Assembly (NCBI GenBank): GCA_007130045.1
Contig: SLTG01000058.1
Location: forward strand, 1-41,015
Length of the DNA stretch: 41,015 nucleotides
Origin: Opitutales bacterium
GTDB taxonomy: Bacteria > Verrucomicrobiota > Verrucomicrobiia > Opitutales > T3Sed10-336
Direction: 5' to 3'
The translations under genes and the position numbers were made by a program. Every line of letters starts with the position of its first letter. Position 1 is the stretch's first letter. The notes beneath the pieces were generated by a model. The model was not told where the DNA came from. It ran no database searches and saw only the letters and a list, made by a program, of their open reading frames with translations. Shown here one piece after another: positions 30,151 through 41,015 of this stretch.

Positions 30151-30186
30151 TTGACAATAATAGCCAAAATAGCTAATTTAGCTATT
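30151..30186 (+). promoter_or_regulatory. Promoter and operator palindrome of the phd-zeta module
   Basis: TTGACA (30151-30156) is followed 17 nt later by a weak -10 (taattt). The palindrome aatagctaa-t-ttagctatt (30168-30186) has perfect 9-bp arms, overlaps the -10 and ends directly at the antitoxin ATG (30187). No Shine-Dalgarno fits between, so the transcript is probably leaderless and the palindrome is the likely autorepression site. Confidence 0.6.
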
Positions 30187-30540
30187 ATGGACATAAAATA
30201 TTCTTCGTCCTCCCGGTCAGACCTCAAGGTGCGGAAGCTTCCGTCGGTCACTGCCACCGCGTTGAAGAACTCGGCGGCCGATGTCCTCGACCAGGTAACC
30301 GCTCAGGGTGCGGTCGCCATTACAAAACACGACAAGCCGCGCGCGGTCCTCGTTTCGATCGAGCAATACGAGCGGATGACGGGTGCCGGGAACAATTTGC
30401 TCAACGAACTGCAGGCGGAATATCGCGGTATGCTTGAAAGCATGCAGAAACCGGAGCAAAAAGCGGCGGCGAAGCGCGCATTCAATGCGACACCAGAGGA
30501 GTTGGGTAAAGCCGCCGTAGCCGCGGCCCGCAGGCGTTAG
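30187..30540 (+). CDS. Phd/YefM-family antitoxin
   Basis: A 117-residue antitoxin of the Phd/YefM family. The core (about residues 17-60) reads VRKLPSVTATALKNSAADVL...GAVAITKHDKPRAVLVSIEQ then YERM, the DNA-binding and dimerisation fold that also represses its own promoter. The C-terminal extension (LQAEYRGMLESMQKPEQKAA...NATPEELGKAAVAAARRR) is where such proteins bind the toxin. The ATG at 30187 abuts a perfect palindrome. It precedes a zeta-type toxin kinase by 50 nt rather than a Doc or YoeB toxin, an uncommon pairing. Confidence 0.88.
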   Translation: MDIKYSSSSRSDLKVRKLPSVTATALKNSAADVLDQVTAQGAVAITKHDKPRAVLVSIEQYERMTGAGNNLLNELQAEYRGMLESMQKPEQKAAAKRAFNATPEELGKAAVAAARRR

Positions 30541-30576
30541 CCTGAATTATTCACCGGATTGCGCGAATAACCCAGG
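30541..30576. repeat. Intergenic hairpin between antitoxin and zeta toxin
   Basis: ttattc (30547-30552) pairs with gaataa (30565-30570) over a 12-nt loop and is flanked by complementary cctg and cagg. There is no T-run, so it is not a classical terminator; it could attenuate toxin expression relative to antitoxin, or be a REP-type element. Confidence 0.35.
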
Positions 30577-30590
30577 TTAGGGCTCATCGG

Positions 30591-31244
30591 ATGCGTGCGG
30601 GAAAACGGAACGAACCGGCTCTCTATGTTCTCGCCGGAGTCAACGGAGCCGGAAAATCCAGTCTCGCGGAGGAGATTTTTCGCGCAAAAGGCTCGGCTGT
30701 CTTCACCCCCGACACCATCGCCCGGAGAATCCGCACGCTTCATCCGGACATTTCACCGACCCTCGCCAACGCCCGCGCCTGGGGGCTCGGCAAGTCGCTG
30801 CTGGAACAGGCCATCGAGGAACGCAAAGATTACCGGTTTGAAACCACGCTCGGCGGACGTACGATCACCCGTTTGCTGCAAGAGGCGGCGCGTGGCGGAC
30901 ACCGGCTCCAGATTTGGTTTTGCGGACTGGAAAGCCCCGACCTTCACCTTCGCCGGGTGCGGGCCCGCGTCGCGCGGGGCGGGCACGACATCCCGGAAGA
31001 AAAAATCGGCGAGCGTTGGAACAGCAGCCGGGAAAATCTCATCCGCCTGCTCCCGCACATCCATCACCTCCGGGTTTATGACAATTCGACCGAAGCCGAC
31101 CCGGCCAGGGGCAAACTTCCCCGGCCCGTGCTCCTGCTCGAAATGAAGCGGCGCAAGATCACCGCCCCCGCCGATCTTTCCGGCGCCGCCGATTGGGCGC
31201 AGCCGATCATCGCCGCCGCAATCCGCCTGCACATGTTTACTTGA
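30591..31244 (+). CDS. Zeta-type toxin kinase family protein
   Basis: A 217-residue P-loop kinase of the zeta toxin family, which phosphorylates UDP-N-acetylglucosamine or related nucleotides and blocks cell-wall synthesis when not held by an antitoxin. The Walker A GVNGAGKSS lies at residues 16-24. FTPDTIARRI and RFETTLGGRTITRLL give the substrate-loop Asp and the helical cap, and LRRVRARVARGGHDIPEEKI is the conserved Arg-rich lid. All hallmarks are present. The likely antitoxin is the Phd/YefM protein upstream. A VOC fragment on the other strand overlaps the last 8 bases. Confidence 0.88.
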   Translation: MRAGKRNEPALYVLAGVNGAGKSSLAEEIFRAKGSAVFTPDTIARRIRTLHPDISPTLANARAWGLGKSLLEQAIEERKDYRFETTLGGRTITRLLQEAARGGHRLQIWFCGLESPDLHLRRVRARVARGGHDIPEEKIGERWNSSRENLIRLLPHIHHLRVYDNSTEADPARGKLPRPVLLLEMKRRKITAPADLSGAADWAQPIIAAAIRLHMFT

Positions 31245-31341
31245 TCCCTTTTGTCGGAAATCCCAATCCGTCCCGACAGAAAGCGACCGACCTTTCGAGA
31301 TCCTCCACTCCGAGCGTGATAACGGTAACATGCGGGTTCAT
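31237..31341 (-). pseudogene. VOC-family protein, N-terminal fragment
   Basis: The 34-residue minus-strand ORF MNPHVTVITLGVEDLERSVA...GLGFPTKGIK is the first beta-alpha-beta unit of a glyoxalase/VOC protein. It stops where the zeta toxin gene ends, so insertion of the toxin module or a deletion removed the remaining ~90 residues. The interval 31342-31478 shows no gene. Confidence 0.6.
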
Positions 31342-31478
31342 CGTTTACTCTTCACAGTAATATCTCGAACTCGCAAATCAATGTGGCCAAAGGGATACAT
31401 AAGAATTCACTTAAGAAATGGAGCAAAATATTTCAACCGCGATTCGCCAGCACGGCTTTCTATCGATCGCGCCGCCCC

Positions 31479-31625
31479 TTAGGCTATCTCCCGCCCCCCC
31501 GGAAAGGCGGTCCGCACCGTCAGGCGCGCGAATTTCACCTCGTCGCAGGTCACATCCACGCGGATCCGGTACACCGGATAGCCTGTGATCGGATCGGAGG
31601 CCAGGAGTCTGACGGAATGAGTCAG
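31479..31625 (-). pseudogene. Unidentified C-terminal protein fragment
   Basis: The minus strand encodes HSVRLLASDPITGYPVYRIR then VDVTCDEVKFARLTVRTAFP and GGREIA before a stop. The codon choice and amino-acid pattern look coding, but no start lies upstream and I do not recognise the family. Probably the 3' end of a lost gene. Confidence 0.35.
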
Positions 31626-31647
31626 GGCTTACAAGGAGCCCTAACGA

Positions 31648-32055
31648 TTAAAGATGCTTCATGGTCAGCTTCGCGATCTTCTTGAAATCGGCGTCGAAGC
31701 TCGCCACGGCATGCCCGGTCAAACGCGCCTCCGCGGCCAGGCAGGCATCGACGTAATCGATCGAGTGATCGCGATACAATTCCAGGGCAAGCAGCACCAC
31801 ATCACGCTTTTCAACGTTCAGGGTCGGGGATTGGAGGAAAGGGATCAGTGCCGACGTGATTTCGTCCCGTTCATATCCGTACATCTTGCCCGAAAGAACA
31901 AAAACGACTTCCGCCACAACGAGAGGGACCACCTTCAGGTCCAATTCCCCCTCGTCATTCGCCGCAAAAAGATCCCTGGCACGGGCGGCCTGTTTCTCCG
32001 GTTCTCCGGTGAGAAATCGGATGATCAGGTTTGTATCGACAAGGCAGGAATTCAC
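31648..32055 (-). CDS. PIN-domain toxin ribonuclease (VapC-like)
   Basis: A 135-residue PIN-domain endoribonuclease. The acidic active-site residues are visible: Asp in SCLVDTNLIIRFL, Glu in LVVAEVVFVL, Asp in SIDYVDACLAAEA and a terminal Asp in ASFDADFKK. The GTG at 32055 is preferred because its codon overlaps the antitoxin stop (GTGA), the usual coupling for such modules. It degrades RNA when not neutralised by the upstream AbrB-type antitoxin. Confidence 0.88.
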   Translation of the reverse strand: MNSCLVDTNLIIRFLTGEPEKQAARARDLFAANDEGELDLKVVPLVVAEVVFVLSGKMYGYERDEITSALIPFLQSPTLNVEKRDVVLLALELYRDHSIDYVDACLAAEARLTGHAVASFDADFKKIAKLTMKHL

Positions 32056-32330
32056 CCGTCCGAGCCCTCTCGTTCCGCATGGTCGGCCCAATCTTCCCGC
32101 GCCGCGGTGCGCGCCTTCTTAAAATCCCCCTGCCGCACCCCTCCTCTCTTCTTGAGCGTGCCGAACGACGCGAGCGCTCCGGGATGGGAATGAAGGACAA
32201 CCTTGTCCCCTTCGACCTCGTAAACAAGACGTTGGCCCGGCTTGATACGCAAGGCCTCGCGCACATGCCTTGGTAGCGTCGTCTGGCCGCGCTTGGTGAC
32301 TTTGGATGTGATCATAAGATTACAATGCAT
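32052..32330 (-). CDS. AbrB/SpoVT-type antitoxin
   Basis: A swapped-hairpin (SpoVT-AbrB) DNA-binding antitoxin. ITSKVTKRGQTTLPRHVREA, RIKPGQRLVYEVEGDKVVL give the full AbrB-like fold in the first 55 residues; the charged tail (KKARTAAREDWADHAEREGS) is the expected toxin-binding segment. The ATG at 32330 has an aagaga site; the ATG at 32315 matches the family start better, so either is possible (92 or 87 residues). Overlaps the PIN toxin by 4 nt. Confidence 0.87.
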   Translation of the reverse strand: MHCNLMITSKVTKRGQTTLPRHVREALRIKPGQRLVYEVEGDKVVLHSHPGALASFGTLKKRGGVRQGDFKKARTAAREDWADHAEREGSDG

Positions 32331-35820: not shown

Positions 35821-36258
35821 TCAACCGGACCCCTTCCGCCTGCTGATCGTCTTTGCTCCGTAGGTCAGCACCTCCAAGCCCGGAATTTCCTCGAAATCTT
35901 CACCGTTCCGGGTCAGCAGACGAGCCCCGTTGGCCCGTGCTGTGGCCGCGATCCACAGGTCGTTGTGCGACCGGCCGGACAGGAGTTTCTTTCGGCGAAG
36001 GTGAGTCGTGATTCGCCCGTAGTGTTCCGCCACATCCAGGTTAGCGGATACTACTGTCCGCGCCCGCAGCAAGGTCAAGGCTTCTTGGACTCTCTCTTCC
36101 GACACCATTGCGGCGCCATCGAAAAACTCTCCAGCCGCGGCGACTGGAACGATCAGCGCCTCGGCGCCGTGTTTCAACATAGCCTTGTTGACCGGAGCAC
36201 CGGCATCACCCGCCGCGCGAAATTCGTCGATCAGGACCGTGGTGTCGATGCAGATCAT
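35821..36258 (-). CDS. VapC-like PIN-domain toxin
   Basis: A 145-residue PIN ribonuclease. Active-site acids are Asp in MICIDTTVLIDEF, Glu in AAGEFFDGA, Asp in SHNDLWIAATARANG and Asp in NGEDFEEI. The ATG at 36258 overlaps the antitoxin stop (ATGA). It would cleave a specific RNA, often initiator tRNA in this family, unless bound by its antitoxin. The length is typical. Confidence 0.88.
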   Translation of the reverse strand: MICIDTTVLIDEFRAAGDAGAPVNKAMLKHGAEALIVPVAAAGEFFDGAAMVSEERVQEALTLLRARTVVSANLDVAEHYGRITTHLRRKKLLSGRSHNDLWIAATARANGARLLTRNGEDFEEIPGLEVLTYGAKTISRRKGSG

Positions 36259-36512
36259 TCCGGAATTTCCACCGACCAGTTCGCGCGCCTGCGGTTGGAC
36301 CTGACAACGGCTTCCATCTTTTTCGCCCCGGAAAGCGACCGTTTCCCCGCCCAAACGGTCGCCGCCTGCCTCACCGCATCAGCGCAGGTTCCGGTGCCGC
36401 TCTGCGAGTCCACGAGACGATCAATCGTCCTCGTGAACGATTCTCCCTCCCGTTTTTGTCGCGCCAGCTTCTCGTAAATCCGGCTGTCCACGGCGATCGT
36501 CTTTGTACTCAT
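36255..36512 (-). CDS. VapB-like antitoxin
   Basis: An 85-residue antitoxin. The N-terminus STKTIAVDSRIYEKLARQKR...GESFTRTIDRLVDSQ is a ribbon-helix-helix type DNA-binding segment; the C-terminal basic part (SGAKKMEAVVRSNRRRANWS) should contact the toxin. The start is the ATG at 36512, followed upstream by an operator-like palindrome. It is translationally coupled to the PIN toxin. Confidence 0.83.
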   Translation of the reverse strand: MSTKTIAVDSRIYEKLARQKREGESFTRTIDRLVDSQSGTGTCADAVRQAATVWAGKRSLSGAKKMEAVVRSNRRRANWSVEIPE

Positions 36513-36514
36513 AT

Positions 36515-36528
36515 ATGTAGATTTACAT
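36515..36528. promoter_or_regulatory. Operator-like palindrome of the VapBC module
   Basis: atgta-gatt-tacat is a perfect 5-bp inverted repeat with 4-nt spacer, immediately upstream of the antitoxin ATG and extended by near-symmetric flanks (atat/gtat). This is the position where VapB-type antitoxins autorepress. Confidence 0.5.
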
Positions 36529-36549
36529 GTATCTCCGCTAAAGTCAAGT

Positions 36550-36791
36550 AGGCGCTGAGGGGACCGAAAGAGACAGGTCCTGGCTTCGTGGACAACCCCG
36601 GCAACGGCTCGTTCCTGGACAGCGAGGGAAACCCGATCATCGACAACTGGCTTACCGAAGGCACGGGCGGCTTCGACCTCGACGCCATCGGCGCCCTGCA
36701 CGCCTTTCCGGAACCCCGCGCCTACGCCGCCCTCGCGGGACTTGCCGCATTGGGCGTCGTCCTCATGCGGCGGATACGCAAACGGTCCTGA
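36550..36791 (+). pseudogene. PEP-CTERM protein, C-terminal fragment
   Basis: The frame reads GPGFVDNPGNGSFLDSEGNP...GGFDLDAIGALHA and ends FPEPRAYAALAGLAALGVVL then MRRIRKRS. That is a textbook PEP-CTERM sorting signal: Pro-Glu-Pro, a transmembrane helix and a basic tail, recognised by exosortase. The only available start is the GTG at 36588; the large exported N-terminal part is missing because sequence upstream of 36550 belongs to the VapBC promoter. Confidence 0.75.
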
Positions 36792-36811
36792 CAACAACGA
36801 CCGGGCAGCAA

Positions 36812-36982: not shown

Positions 36983-38230
36983 ATGGTAGCCTATACCTCC
37001 AAATTCGAACCAGAAGCCGCGACCGGGGCCGGATGGCGCAACACCGGTTATAACTACGACGATGCTTGGGCGCGGAGGCCCAGTGAGAGCCGGGAGAGTG
37101 ATGATTGGCACTCCGCCTACGACTACGACCTCTTCAGTACTGCCGTCAGATTCCAGGGAGAAAACAGCACCTTAATCCCGCTCCACCTCGGCACGACGTA
37201 CCAGGACAATCGGTCCGGGATGCTCAAGTACATGTACGACGCCGAAGGTATAGGTAGCTTTGTCCATTGCGATGACAATGGCAATGTGATTGCCCTGACT
37301 AATGGCGACGGGAACGGTGAGCTTTCGGCCACCTACGACTACGATCCATTCGGTAATTTTATTCGGGGAACCGGAACCGCAGCCGCTTTGAATCCATATC
37401 GTTTCTCCGCAAAGTACCACGATGACGTTCTGGACCTCTATTATTACGGCTTCAGGTTTTACAGCCCATCACAAGGACGGTTCCTGAACAGGGATCCGAT
37501 CGAGGAAGCGGGGGGATTGAACCTGTATGCGTTCGTCGGGAATGATCCGGTGAGTCGTATCGACTATTTAGGAAGATATGCGCTTTCGTTTGTAAGACGC
37601 CGTACCGGATCGCGCACCCATCGGTTAGCAAGTTGGCGTTGGGACGAGGATCGTGAACGTATAGTGAGGTTTTCCCAGGTAAACGCGAATATTTTTTCAC
37701 CACGCCTCCACGATTGGATATCGACGTACATGGAAGAAATCGCTGATATTTATTGTCCCAGCGAAGGGCGCGATATTCTTGAATCAGAAGTTTCGTACGC
37801 TGAAGCGACTGTCTCTGATGCTTATCAAGCGATGCAATCGAATCAGATTCTGGAGGTTAGTCCGGGGGAATATACAGGTGATGATTCAAGGGGCGTGGGC
37901 GCGTTTGTGTTCGATCGTGATGACCGAATCTGGATTACAGATCTGTTTTTCGAAGAATTCACATCGATGGAACAAGCAGCGGTGTTTTTTCACGAGGTAA
38001 CCCATTTGGTTGGCCGAACCCCGGGTGACGATGCAGATGAAGTTGGAGGGTGGCATAGAACAGGACATTTATATGAGGAACTATTCCTTGAGCGCTCGTA
38101 TAACGGAGTGATTTTCCGATTTGAGACGCGGAATGCAAATTTTATAAATGGGGAGCTGCTTTTCAGTGGAAATCTAGACCAAAGGATCCGACGAAGAGAT
38201 GGATTACCACTTGGCGCGACACGAAGGTAG
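36983..38230 (+). CDS. RHS repeat-associated core with C-terminal HExxH toxin domain
   Basis: A 415-residue C-terminal 'tip' of an RHS polymorphic toxin. Residues about 85-198 are the RHS-associated core: DDNGNVIALTNGDGNGELSA, TYDYDPFGNFIRG, NPYRFSAKYHDDVLDLYYYG, FLNRDPIEEAGGLNLYAFVG, NDPVSRIDYLGR. After this cleavage-proximal boundary the sequence is unrelated to RHS and lower in GC; it contains AAVFFHEVTHLVG (HEVTH at 337-341) with GWHRTGHLYEE shortly after, consistent with a zinc metallopeptidase-type toxin. The long N-terminal YD-repeat barrel and export signals are missing, so this is either an orphan tip or the 3' end of a truncated gene. The next gene is the candidate immunity protein. 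Confidence 0.82.
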   Translation: MVAYTSKFEPEAATGAGWRNTGYNYDDAWARRPSESRESDDWHSAYDYDLFSTAVRFQGENSTLIPLHLGTTYQDNRSGMLKYMYDAEGIGSFVHCDDNGNVIALTNGDGNGELSATYDYDPFGNFIRGTGTAAALNPYRFSAKYHDDVLDLYYYGFRFYSPSQGRFLNRDPIEEAGGLNLYAFVGNDPVSRIDYLGRYALSFVRRRTGSRTHRLASWRWDEDRERIVRFSQVNANIFSPRLHDWISTYMEEIADIYCPSEGRDILESEVSYAEATVSDAYQAMQSNQILEVSPGEYTGDDSRGVGAFVFDRDDRIWITDLFFEEFTSMEQAAVFFHEVTHLVGRTPGDDADEVGGWHRTGHLYEELFLERSYNGVIFRFETRNANFINGELLFSGNLDQRIRRRDGLPLGATRR

Positions 38231-38255
38231 ATTGAATTTCCGAGGCGGATGATAG

Positions 38256-38825
38256 ATGAAAACGCGTGACCAGAAGCGTCGGACACGACAAACATTATTG
38301 ATTGCGGTTCTTCTCGTTGGTCTTGGGGGTACCGTGTGCTTGCTGACGGACCCGCCTCAGGTTCACCACCCGAGATCGATCGAGGAGATTGATACGAGGC
38401 AGGATCTTAAAATGATTATTGGGAGTATAGTGAAATTGAAAAAAGAAGAAATGATTGACCTAGGCGACAAGACGGGAAGAAACCTTAATGAGGATAGGTT
38501 TGGTCAGAATATGTTAAAATTGGTATCCGACGTTTTTAGGTTCGACTGGCTACCTGTCCATCTGAGTATCAACGGGGAAGGAAATTGGATCGACTCGCGA
38601 GGTAATCTGATTTTCATTGTTTATTTCGGGGATGAAGAGGAAGCGCATGCGCGAGAGGAGATGCGGAGCTTGGCGCAACGCTATCGGTTTGCCGTATGGG
38701 CTATTGGGAGAAATGAAATTAACGAGTATGGAAGTGGCGATGACGTTTTTGTGGGGCTTTCACGTGATGGTGATTACGAATTTGAAGTGAAGAGATTTGA
38801 ACGCCCATGGTGGCGATTCTGGTAA
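38256..38825 (+). CDS. Candidate immunity protein of the RHS toxin
   Basis: A 189-residue protein of no recognised family. A basic N-terminus (KTRDQKRRTRQ) and one hydrophobic segment (TLLIAVLLVGLGGTVCLL) suggest an N-terminal membrane anchor; the rest is soluble, acidic and mixed (EEIDTRQDLKMIIGSIVKLK, FIVYFGDEEEAHAREEMRSL, a C-terminus rich in Trp: RPWWRFW). It starts 25 nt after the RHS stop and shares its lower GC. Position and base composition fit an immunity protein acting in the periplasm or at the membrane against the HEVTH toxin. This role is inferred only from context. Confidence 0.6.
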   Translation: MKTRDQKRRTRQTLLIAVLLVGLGGTVCLLTDPPQVHHPRSIEEIDTRQDLKMIIGSIVKLKKEEMIDLGDKTGRNLNEDRFGQNMLKLVSDVFRFDWLPVHLSINGEGNWIDSRGNLIFIVYFGDEEEAHAREEMRSLAQRYRFAVWAIGRNEINEYGSGDDVFVGLSRDGDYEFEVKRFERPWWRFW

Positions 38826-39083: not shown

Positions 39084-40079
39084 ATGGATATTATGAATAC
39101 ACCCATGTCATCCGAAAACAACACTACAACGCACGCCGAGGTTATCAAGCTCGGTGTTGACATCCACGCCGGCAAGTATGTCGTGGCCCGACAGATCGAC
39201 GGGGCCTCTCCACAGGCACCGCAACGTTTCACTCCCGAACAGTTCCTCACTTGGGCAAAGAAGCAGACCCGGCTGGCCGGGCAGGTTTACTGTTGCTACG
39301 AGGCCGGCTGTTTCGGCTACGTGTTGCACCGAAGGCTGGAGGCGATCGGGGTCGTCAATTATGTGGTTCGTCCGCGCAACTGGGACGAATACGGAGAGAA
39401 GGTAAAGACCGACAATCGCGACGCCGGCGAGCTTCTTCACCACTTGGACCGCTACTTGGCCGGCAACAAGCGCGCCCTTCAAATCGTTCGTGTTCCGACC
39501 GAGAAAGAGGAGCAACAACGCAGCGAAAGCCGGCAGCGTGATTCCCTAGCCAAGGAACGCAAACGCCTGCAAAACCAGGGCAACAGCGCGGCGCGCTATT
39601 ATGGGTTTTCGGTGCCGGCGGAGTGGTGGCGGCCGAAGAAGTTCGCGGTGGTGCGCAACGAACTGCCGGAGCACCTCGTTGCCCTGTTGGAAGTGTGGCA
39701 CAGGTTGCTGGTGGTAATCGACAAGGAACTGACCGCGGCCACCGCTCGGCTTGAGCGCTCCAATCCCCGCATGCTGCCGGTGGGCCTCGGCGCTTTGACC
39801 GCGACGATCCTCGACCGCGAGGTCTGCGACTGGAACCGGTTCAAGAATCGGCGACAAATCGGCGGTTACACCGGACTGTGCCCGCGGGAAGATTCCAGCG
39901 GCGGGCGGCGCCAACAGGGCAGCATCACCAAACACGGCAATCCGAGGATACGGCATGTTACCCTCGAGGCCATCTGGCGGTTGTTTCAATTTCAACCCAA
40001 CTACAAGCCGATTGTCTATTGGTCCGAGCGAATCCGATCCGGAGGGGCGAGCCGAAATACGTCACGTTTTGACATGTGA
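39084..40079 (+). CDS. IS110-family transposase, C-terminally truncated
   Basis: A 331-residue DEDD transposase. The RuvC-like N-terminal domain carries Asp26 (KLGVDIHAGKY), Glu73 (CCYEAGCFGY), and Asp110/Asp113 (VKTDNRDAGELL). The C-terminal Transposase_20 domain follows (LPVGLGALTATILDREVCDW, IGGYTGLCPREDSSGGRRQQ) with the likely nucleophile Ser280 in QGSITKHGNPRIR. The last ~25-30 residues of the family are replaced: after FQPNYKPIVYWSERIRSGG the sequence enters a repeat array and ends SRNTSRFDM. The catalytic residues survive, so activity is uncertain. The ATG at 39084 is used; 39105 is an alternative. Confidence 0.85.
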   Translation: MDIMNTPMSSENNTTTHAEVIKLGVDIHAGKYVVARQIDGASPQAPQRFTPEQFLTWAKKQTRLAGQVYCCYEAGCFGYVLHRRLEAIGVVNYVVRPRNWDEYGEKVKTDNRDAGELLHHLDRYLAGNKRALQIVRVPTEKEEQQRSESRQRDSLAKERKRLQNQGNSAARYYGFSVPAEWWRPKKFAVVRNELPEHLVALLEVWHRLLVVIDKELTAATARLERSNPRMLPVGLGALTATILDREVCDWNRFKNRRQIGGYTGLCPREDSSGGRRQQGSITKHGNPRIRHVTLEAIWRLFQFQPNYKPIVYWSERIRSGGASRNTSRFDM

Positions 40080-40290
40080 CAAATCCACTCCCTGAATACA
40101 CCTCTCTCCCACTCGATCCAACGGCAACCGGCACGCCCTTGTTCCAACCCGGGGAGCCCTTCCCGCCAGCGCCTCGCCCGCTTGAGCCCTTTGTTTTCGG
40201 AAGCCGTCTCGCCCAGCACAACCGACATTATGATCTAATATCGCCCGGGAACCTGCCCGCGCCATCGGAGATGGCTAGTCAGGAAGAATA
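40054..40290. repeat. Repeat array unit 1
   Basis: Begins gaaatacgtcacgttttgac, contains cggcacgcccttgttccaac and gagccctttgttttcggaag, and ends with cacaaccgacattatgatc / aatatcgcccggg. 237 nt later the start recurs. It forms the new 3' end of the truncated IS110 transposase ORF. Confidence 0.75.
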
Positions 40291-40690
40291 GAAATACGTC
40301 ACGTTTTGACATTTGACACATCCACTCCCCAAATACACTGAGTTTCCTCGAGGCAAACGCTAACGGGCACGCCCTTGTTCCAATCGGCCGCCCCTCCCGC
40401 CATCGCCTCGCCCGCTCGAGCCCTTTTGTTTTCGGAAGCCTTCCTCCTCGCACAACATTTAGCGGAGTATGTCTGATGCCGCCGTGCGAGAAGGCTTGAT
40501 TTGGCTCGTGAGACGTTCGCGGCGGCATGGGACATACTCCGCCGTTGAACGAAACCGCTTCGGCCCGCCCGGTTCCGCCTCTTAAGGGGAAAGTAGGCGT
40601 TTCATCCTTTCCCAGGGCGCTCGCAATCGGCCGTCGATCGCTCCATGGAAGCGACAGCCGGGGCGCCTGATCCTTTTGAAGGCGGGGAAA
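40291..40690. repeat. Repeat array unit 2 with an inserted hairpin
   Basis: Shares gaaatacgtcacgttttgac, atttgacacatccactcccc, cacgcccttgttccaatcgg and agcccttttgttttcggaag with unit 1. After that it carries a long imperfect hairpin: gcggagtatgtctgatgccg (from about 40462) pairs with cggcatgggacatactccgc (to about 40542). This is absent from unit 1. Confidence 0.7.
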
Positions 40691-40692
40691 GC

Positions 40693-41015
40693 AAAAGACG
40701 TCAGGTCTCTACATTTGACAAATCCACACTCTGAATACGCACCTCTCAGTTCTTCGCCAACCGGCACGCCCTTGTTCCAATCGGCCGCCCCTCCCGCCCC
40801 CCTGTCCGCGGCTGGTCCGACCCTTTTGGTTTTTGGCGGGCCGCTCCGGCCGCACAATCCGCATTCATGTCCAATATCGCCCGGGGACCCGTCGGCGCTC
40901 GCGGGGCTCGCTTGGCAGGGGCGATACTGGACATAATGCGGGGTGGATTGTGCGCCGGAAGCGGCAAGTCAGCGGACCGGGTCGGACCAGCCGCGGACAG
41001 GGGGGCGGGAAGGGC
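40693..41015. repeat. Repeat array unit 3 with ~100-nt inverted arm at window edge
   Basis: Shares acatttgacaaatccacact, ggcacgcccttgttccaatc and gcacaatccgcattcatgtc / aatatcgcccgggg with units 1-2. The segment from about 40790 to 40890 is repeated in inverse orientation from 40910 to 41015 (for example ctgtccgcggctggtccgac on the left and gtcggaccagccgcggacag on the right), so a large cruciform or hairpin is possible. The element continues beyond the window. Confidence 0.75.

Follow-up and report, generated by a model that had tools for sequence, protein, structure and literature searches.

The window, the whole stretch of 41,015 nucleotides analysed here, is one entire contig of a 3.4 Mb genome assembled in 146 contigs. 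On its forward strand, an open reading frame (ORF) of 415 amino acids (36983..38230) carries the end of an RHS protein and is followed, after a spacer of 25 nt, by an ORF of 189 amino acids (38256..38825). The pair can be divided into the following features:

36983..37576, + strand: RHS part of the orphan RHS tip (P0001 residues 1-198; core 120-197), with a TIGR03696 match
37577..38230, + strand: toxin domain (residues 199-415), a putative zinc peptidase of zincin-like type
37991..38005, + strand: HEVTH motif (residues 337-341)
38256..38825, + strand: candidate immunity protein, with an N-terminal anchor and a GspG/pseudopilin-like domain predicted to be periplasmic
38583..38756, + strand: C-terminal region of GspG type in the immunity candidate (approximately residues 110-167, IDSRGN...FAVWAIGRNEINEYGSGDDVFVG; alignments A8 and A10)

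TIGR03696, the RHS core model, covers residues 120-197 of the tip (E 6.3e-23), in agreement with the first-pass annotation, which let the core end at about residue 198. What follows is a variable C-terminal domain of about 217-218 residues that is unrelated to RHS. This domain had been described as a low-GC, non-RHS domain with HEVTH, and both properties are confirmed: its GC content is 0.478 (GC3 0.42), compared to 0.54 (GC3 0.64) in the RHS part and 0.588 in the window, and the motif lies at residues 337-341. The description of the downstream gene as encoding a 189-residue product 25 nt 3′ of the tip with an N-terminal hydrophobic anchor is equally accurate.

The tip ORF opens inside the RHS part and the N-terminal delivery region is absent from it, which makes it an orphan tip. 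Upstream of the tip we found a PEP-CTERM-like fragment and no RHS N-terminal half. Being an orphan, the tip may be silent.

Several other elements surround the pair. An IS110-family transposase is located about 260 nt downstream and has three diverged direct repeats right behind it (40054-40919; about 110-235 bp, 69-81% identity). The contig end (40787-41015) contains a 37-nt inverted repeat, 97% complementary, inside a longer fold-back that is possibly an assembly edge. Three toxin-antitoxin modules (Phd/YefM with a zeta toxin, MazE-type with PIN, and VapB with PIN; Pfam, above cut-off) are found at most 7 kb from the RHS tip, at 30151-32330 and 35821-36797.

The same genome also contains further RHS pieces. 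The core DNA of the tips on contigs C49 and C102 (the longer piece) is 82-86% identical to the core DNA in the window. A third contig, C94, carries an RHS gene of 2095 codons which starts, by eye, with a signal-peptide-like sequence and leaves the contig inside the core. A search of the host genome for VipB, the sheath protein of the type VI secretion system (T6SS), gave no match, and one T2SSG-like gene scores over the cut-off. Given the full-length RHS protein with a signal peptide on C94 and the lack of a VipB match, delivery of a Sec-exported RHS protein is more likely than delivery by a T6SS. That the window tip ever joins such a full-length carrier is something we infer. The tip on C49 (L014 7722-9370, genome G000) is itself an orphan RHS tip, with a Cys-rich C-terminal domain, and the gene behind it resembles, by eye, a relative of the formylglycine-generating enzyme.

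The toxin domain reaches no family above cut-off in Pfam or NCBIfam. With this domain alone as query, a search of 84,980 species genomes brought up no close relative, and nothing convincing was matched among 388 genomes from the phylum; PDB sequence searches found no zincin, and PADLOC gave no match. The idea of an undescribed effector domain therefore holds for the toxin. Under threshold, the window domain matches Aspzincin_M35 (E 0.012) and M48 (E 0.08), and individual tips of the related loci described below match Aspzincin M35, Zincin_1, M91 and Reprolysin M12. The Aspzincin_M35 (PF14521) score amounts to 15.4-16.5 bits compared to a curated cut-off of 30, with one of four toxin members matched at all, and a PF14521 scan of the genome itself found nothing further. 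Some early weak toxin matches (L007-L010) were discarded as unrelated frames.

Across six aligned RHS tips, all with the same kind of neighbour, HExxH is the sole invariant motif. Asp349 and Asp350, located 8 and 9 residues past the second His of the window HEVTH, are candidates for the third zinc ligand; an Asp is found shortly behind the second His in most of the aligned tips, and G360 differs. When the window toxin is compared directly to the G360 toxin by BLAST, only the HExxH neighbourhood aligns. A toxin profile built without the window ranks the tip first among the ORFs of the window (E 0.15 with Z = 80000, the next at 180); the window toxin is a marginal member of this profile. The AlphaFold model of the toxin is poor (pLDDT 38, from an alignment of two sequences) and gave no meaningful match in Foldseek. 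The sub-threshold matches of individual members to several zincin families fit a zincin of no assigned family rather than membership in M35.

The downstream protein had been regarded as an orphan of no recognised family. This does not hold: profile comparisons relate the C-terminal part of the immunity candidate to the major pseudopilin GspG (T2SSG). Aligned with hhalign, the RHS-linked copies match true prepilins over the last 52 columns (99.4%, E 2e-21), and a leave-one-out profile recovers the window protein at E 9e-7. TIGR01710 matches one RHS-linked pilin-like member (E 0.0016), and in a mixed set that includes prepilins four members are matched by T2SSG; the window protein itself scores under the Pfam cut-off. 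A DUF6386 match (E 0.047) was set aside as a short sub-threshold stretch. The structural model (pLDDT 68) was folded from an alignment that held true prepilins, and its best PDB match (Foldseek, VIA) is a GspG-type pseudopilus, a weak match (E 0.31, Z 6.1, 117 residues) of the type that prepilins in the alignment favour.

Like GspG/T2SSG (PF08334, TIGR01710), the immunity candidate has an N-terminal membrane helix followed by another helix, and a C-terminal D..G...WSxGxN...GxGDD(I/V) region, in which W148, G151, N153, N156, G159, D162 and D163 are invariant in alignment A10. The window protein is without the Pro-Trp of DPWG. Unlike GspG/T2SSG, it sits behind an RHS tip and lacks the class III prepilin cleavage/methylation motif (GFTLIE), which is also absent from all RHS-adjacent relatives that were scored. 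Between loci, the identity of the pilin-like proteins goes down to 13-23%. The window protein has a single hydrophobic segment (about residues 13-31) with a charge of +5 ahead of it. This arrangement predicts an N-in/C-out topology, and accordingly the C-terminal domain should face the periplasm.

The combination of an RHS core, a HExxH domain and an anchored pilin-like gene is found in seven loci: the window and six other genomes (G360, G210, L060 (= G591), G193, G502 and G418). In G210 the contig start cuts the RHS core, of which the end is visible. The named relatives are metagenome-assembled genomes (MAGs) labelled Kiritimatiellae and Lentisphaerae.

Used as a query, the downstream protein gave two weak matches, each an anchored protein whose gene lies immediately 3′ of an RHS tip; the tip in G360 carries HEHVH and the tip in G204 carries another toxin. 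A profile made from the C-terminal motifs of three pilin-like proteins matched many proteins. Six of its seven best matches adjoin RHS tips (G204, G360, the window, G354, G210 and G084) and the other one (G230) does not; the rest are mostly ordinary prepilins or prepilin-like proteins. An RHS core lies directly upstream in none of the 29 loci with a prepilin motif compared to 11 of the 31 without, in a count of 60 loci that includes some identical loci entered twice. The first-pass annotation named a wide occurrence of the downstream gene away from RHS neighbours as a refuting condition. The domain is indeed widespread away from RHS, as true prepilins; what adjoins RHS tips is a divergent subset lacking the usual prepilin motif.

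Three of the loci (G360, G210 and L060) were found via the immunity side and are therefore no test of the pairing. The toxin profile alone found G502 (E 2.6e-38), G193 (E 9.6e-10) and G418 (E 7.3e-5), none of which was picked by its neighbour, and a pilin-like gene is located directly 3′ in all three. An immunity alignment of six proteins was too divergent for scanning and a narrower one was used. The immunity profile strongly matches the neighbours in G193 (E 1.7e-34) and G502 (E 2.9e-25); the G193 protein belonged to this profile, and the earlier motif profile, dating from when G193 was undiscovered, gave 2.2e-5. G502 and G210 are closely related, which limits the independence of G502. The 171-codon neighbour in G418 matches via SVGPDGRYNGGYHDDI only, with E 54 at Z = 80000 (about 7e-4 for a single ORF), and has, by eye, a lipobox-like VVAC in place of the plain anchor. 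That six further genomes carry the pair supports the toxin-immunity pairing proposed at first pass and, together with the N-in/C-out anchor, the proposed periplasmic side of action.

The pilin-like protein is also found with a toxin domain of another type. In G204 (L052), G354 (L048) and G084 (L051) it is paired with an unrelated domain containing GHG and C motifs, for which the G204 copy gives a sub-threshold separase (C50) match. With low certainty, we regard this GHG...C domain as caspase-like and as a second candidate class of protease-like toxins.

Some loci contain more than one such unit. In L060 and G193 more RHS sequence is found right behind the zincin/pilin pair; in L060 this includes a second RHS tip (1319-2443) with a domain that by eye is SGNH-hydrolase-like and with its own downstream gene. 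In L050 (1190-3619), tandem pilin-like genes lie beside other anchored orphans and are followed by an RHS fragment, an arrangement that looks like a polyimmunity array. Together, L050, L060 and G193 look like arrays of displaced cassettes. In a different context, a GspG-type C-terminal motif closes a planctomycete ORF of 753 codons (L053 874-3132).

We consider it likely that the locus is a polymorphic-toxin cassette made of an RHS zincin toxin and a periplasm-facing, GspG-derived immunity protein. The ORF at 36983-38230 would be a displaced RHS tip whose final 217 residues form a zincin-type zinc peptidase toxin. The immunity protein would be anchored in the inner membrane by its one N-terminal helix, and its periplasm-facing GspG-related domain, minus the prepilin cleavage site, would bind and block the toxin. 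Once recombined onto a full-length RHS carrier, the tip would release the toxin into the envelope of a neighbour, where it would cut an envelope protein, with siblings shielded by the anchored pilin-like protein.

The main rival concerns the function of the pilin-like protein, which could instead be an adaptor dedicated to secretion: a pseudopilin variant aiding export of the RHS protein by a type II secretion system (T2SS). It takes this rank because an RHS bacteriocin of Xanthomonas perforans, Bcn-A, depends on type II secretion and loses its activity in an xpsD (T2SS) mutant (PMC7259588). The relationship to GspG and the T2SSG-like gene in the host genome are compatible with such a role. 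We nonetheless consider it unlikely: the prepilin cleavage/methylation motif is missing, the gene is linked to the variable tip and not to the conserved N-terminal carrier, tandem orphan copies adjoin the RHS fragment in L050, and an identity of 13-23% between loci is a divergence typical of immunity genes.

Two further explanations concern the tip itself. An orphan fragment with no RHS N-terminal half upstream and an IS110-family transposase about 260 nt downstream could be a decayed, non-expressed remnant together with its neighbour. To this we assign a low probability, as neither reading frame is broken, HExxH and the GspG motif have both been retained, and relatives (L060, G193) contain arrays in which orphan tips with their immunity genes recur. 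Least probable, in our estimate, is that the domain is another kind of toxin with no peptidase activity, in which HEVTH occurs by chance. HExxH does arise in 1.3% of shuffles of the 217-residue domain, no curated family is reached and the predicted toxin structure is of poor quality (pLDDT 38); against this, the motif is invariant in the six aligned tips, and different members match, under threshold, different zincin families.

Within the toxin-immunity interpretation, the pilin-like protein might even be a decoy of the toxin target. The zincin and the caspase-like RHS toxins would then attack pseudopilin or type IV pilin machinery in rival cells. As the antidote, a copy of the GspG head that is anchored in the membrane and does not assemble would occupy the protease. 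This would explain why one immunity fold is common to two unrelated protease-like toxins; as an account of the target it is speculative and, we think, improbable.

RHS toxin-immunity cassettes have been surveyed as polymorphic toxins, including those with Tox-MPTase1-5 and Tox-HopH1 domains, for which the survey table gives no immunity protein (Zhang et al. 2012, PMC3482391). The window resembles these RHS cassettes in having a zincin-like HExxH domain behind the RHS core, an exchangeable tip and a small gene directly 3′; it differs in that its toxin reaches no Pfam or NCBIfam model. Zinc proteases, secreted or delivered, can act on bacteria. Bcn-C of Xanthomonas perforans is a zincin-type (M35-like) zinc protease acting against related bacteria, and the window toxin would putatively share the zincin type; unlike the latter, Bcn-C is a free-standing enzyme and not an RHS tip, and the available text of its report mentions no immunity gene for it (PMC7259588). 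VgrG2b of Pseudomonas aeruginosa carries a C-terminal zinc metalloprotease toxin domain on a delivery protein and is toxic in the periplasm (PMC12133291). Its carrier is a T6SS VgrG, whereas the carrier type in the window is RHS, in a host where VipB gave no match.

In the searchable literature we found no earlier report of a pilin-fold protein serving as an immunity protein; literature searches for an Rhs toxin with an Aspzincin domain, and for GspG together with immunity protein, effector or pilin-like, found no paper. New here are the finding that the pair recurs and the link between the immunity candidate and pilins.

The pilin fold is familiar from filaments and secretion. The locus and its relatives define a candidate family of immunity partners for zincin-type RHS toxins, and they suggest that a pilin-type protein has been recruited as an antidote to protease-like weapons, with the pilin fold as a scaffold for immunity to such toxins of more than one type. 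They also provide a small set of toxin-immunity pairs that can be tested, from a phylum in which few weapons have been studied.
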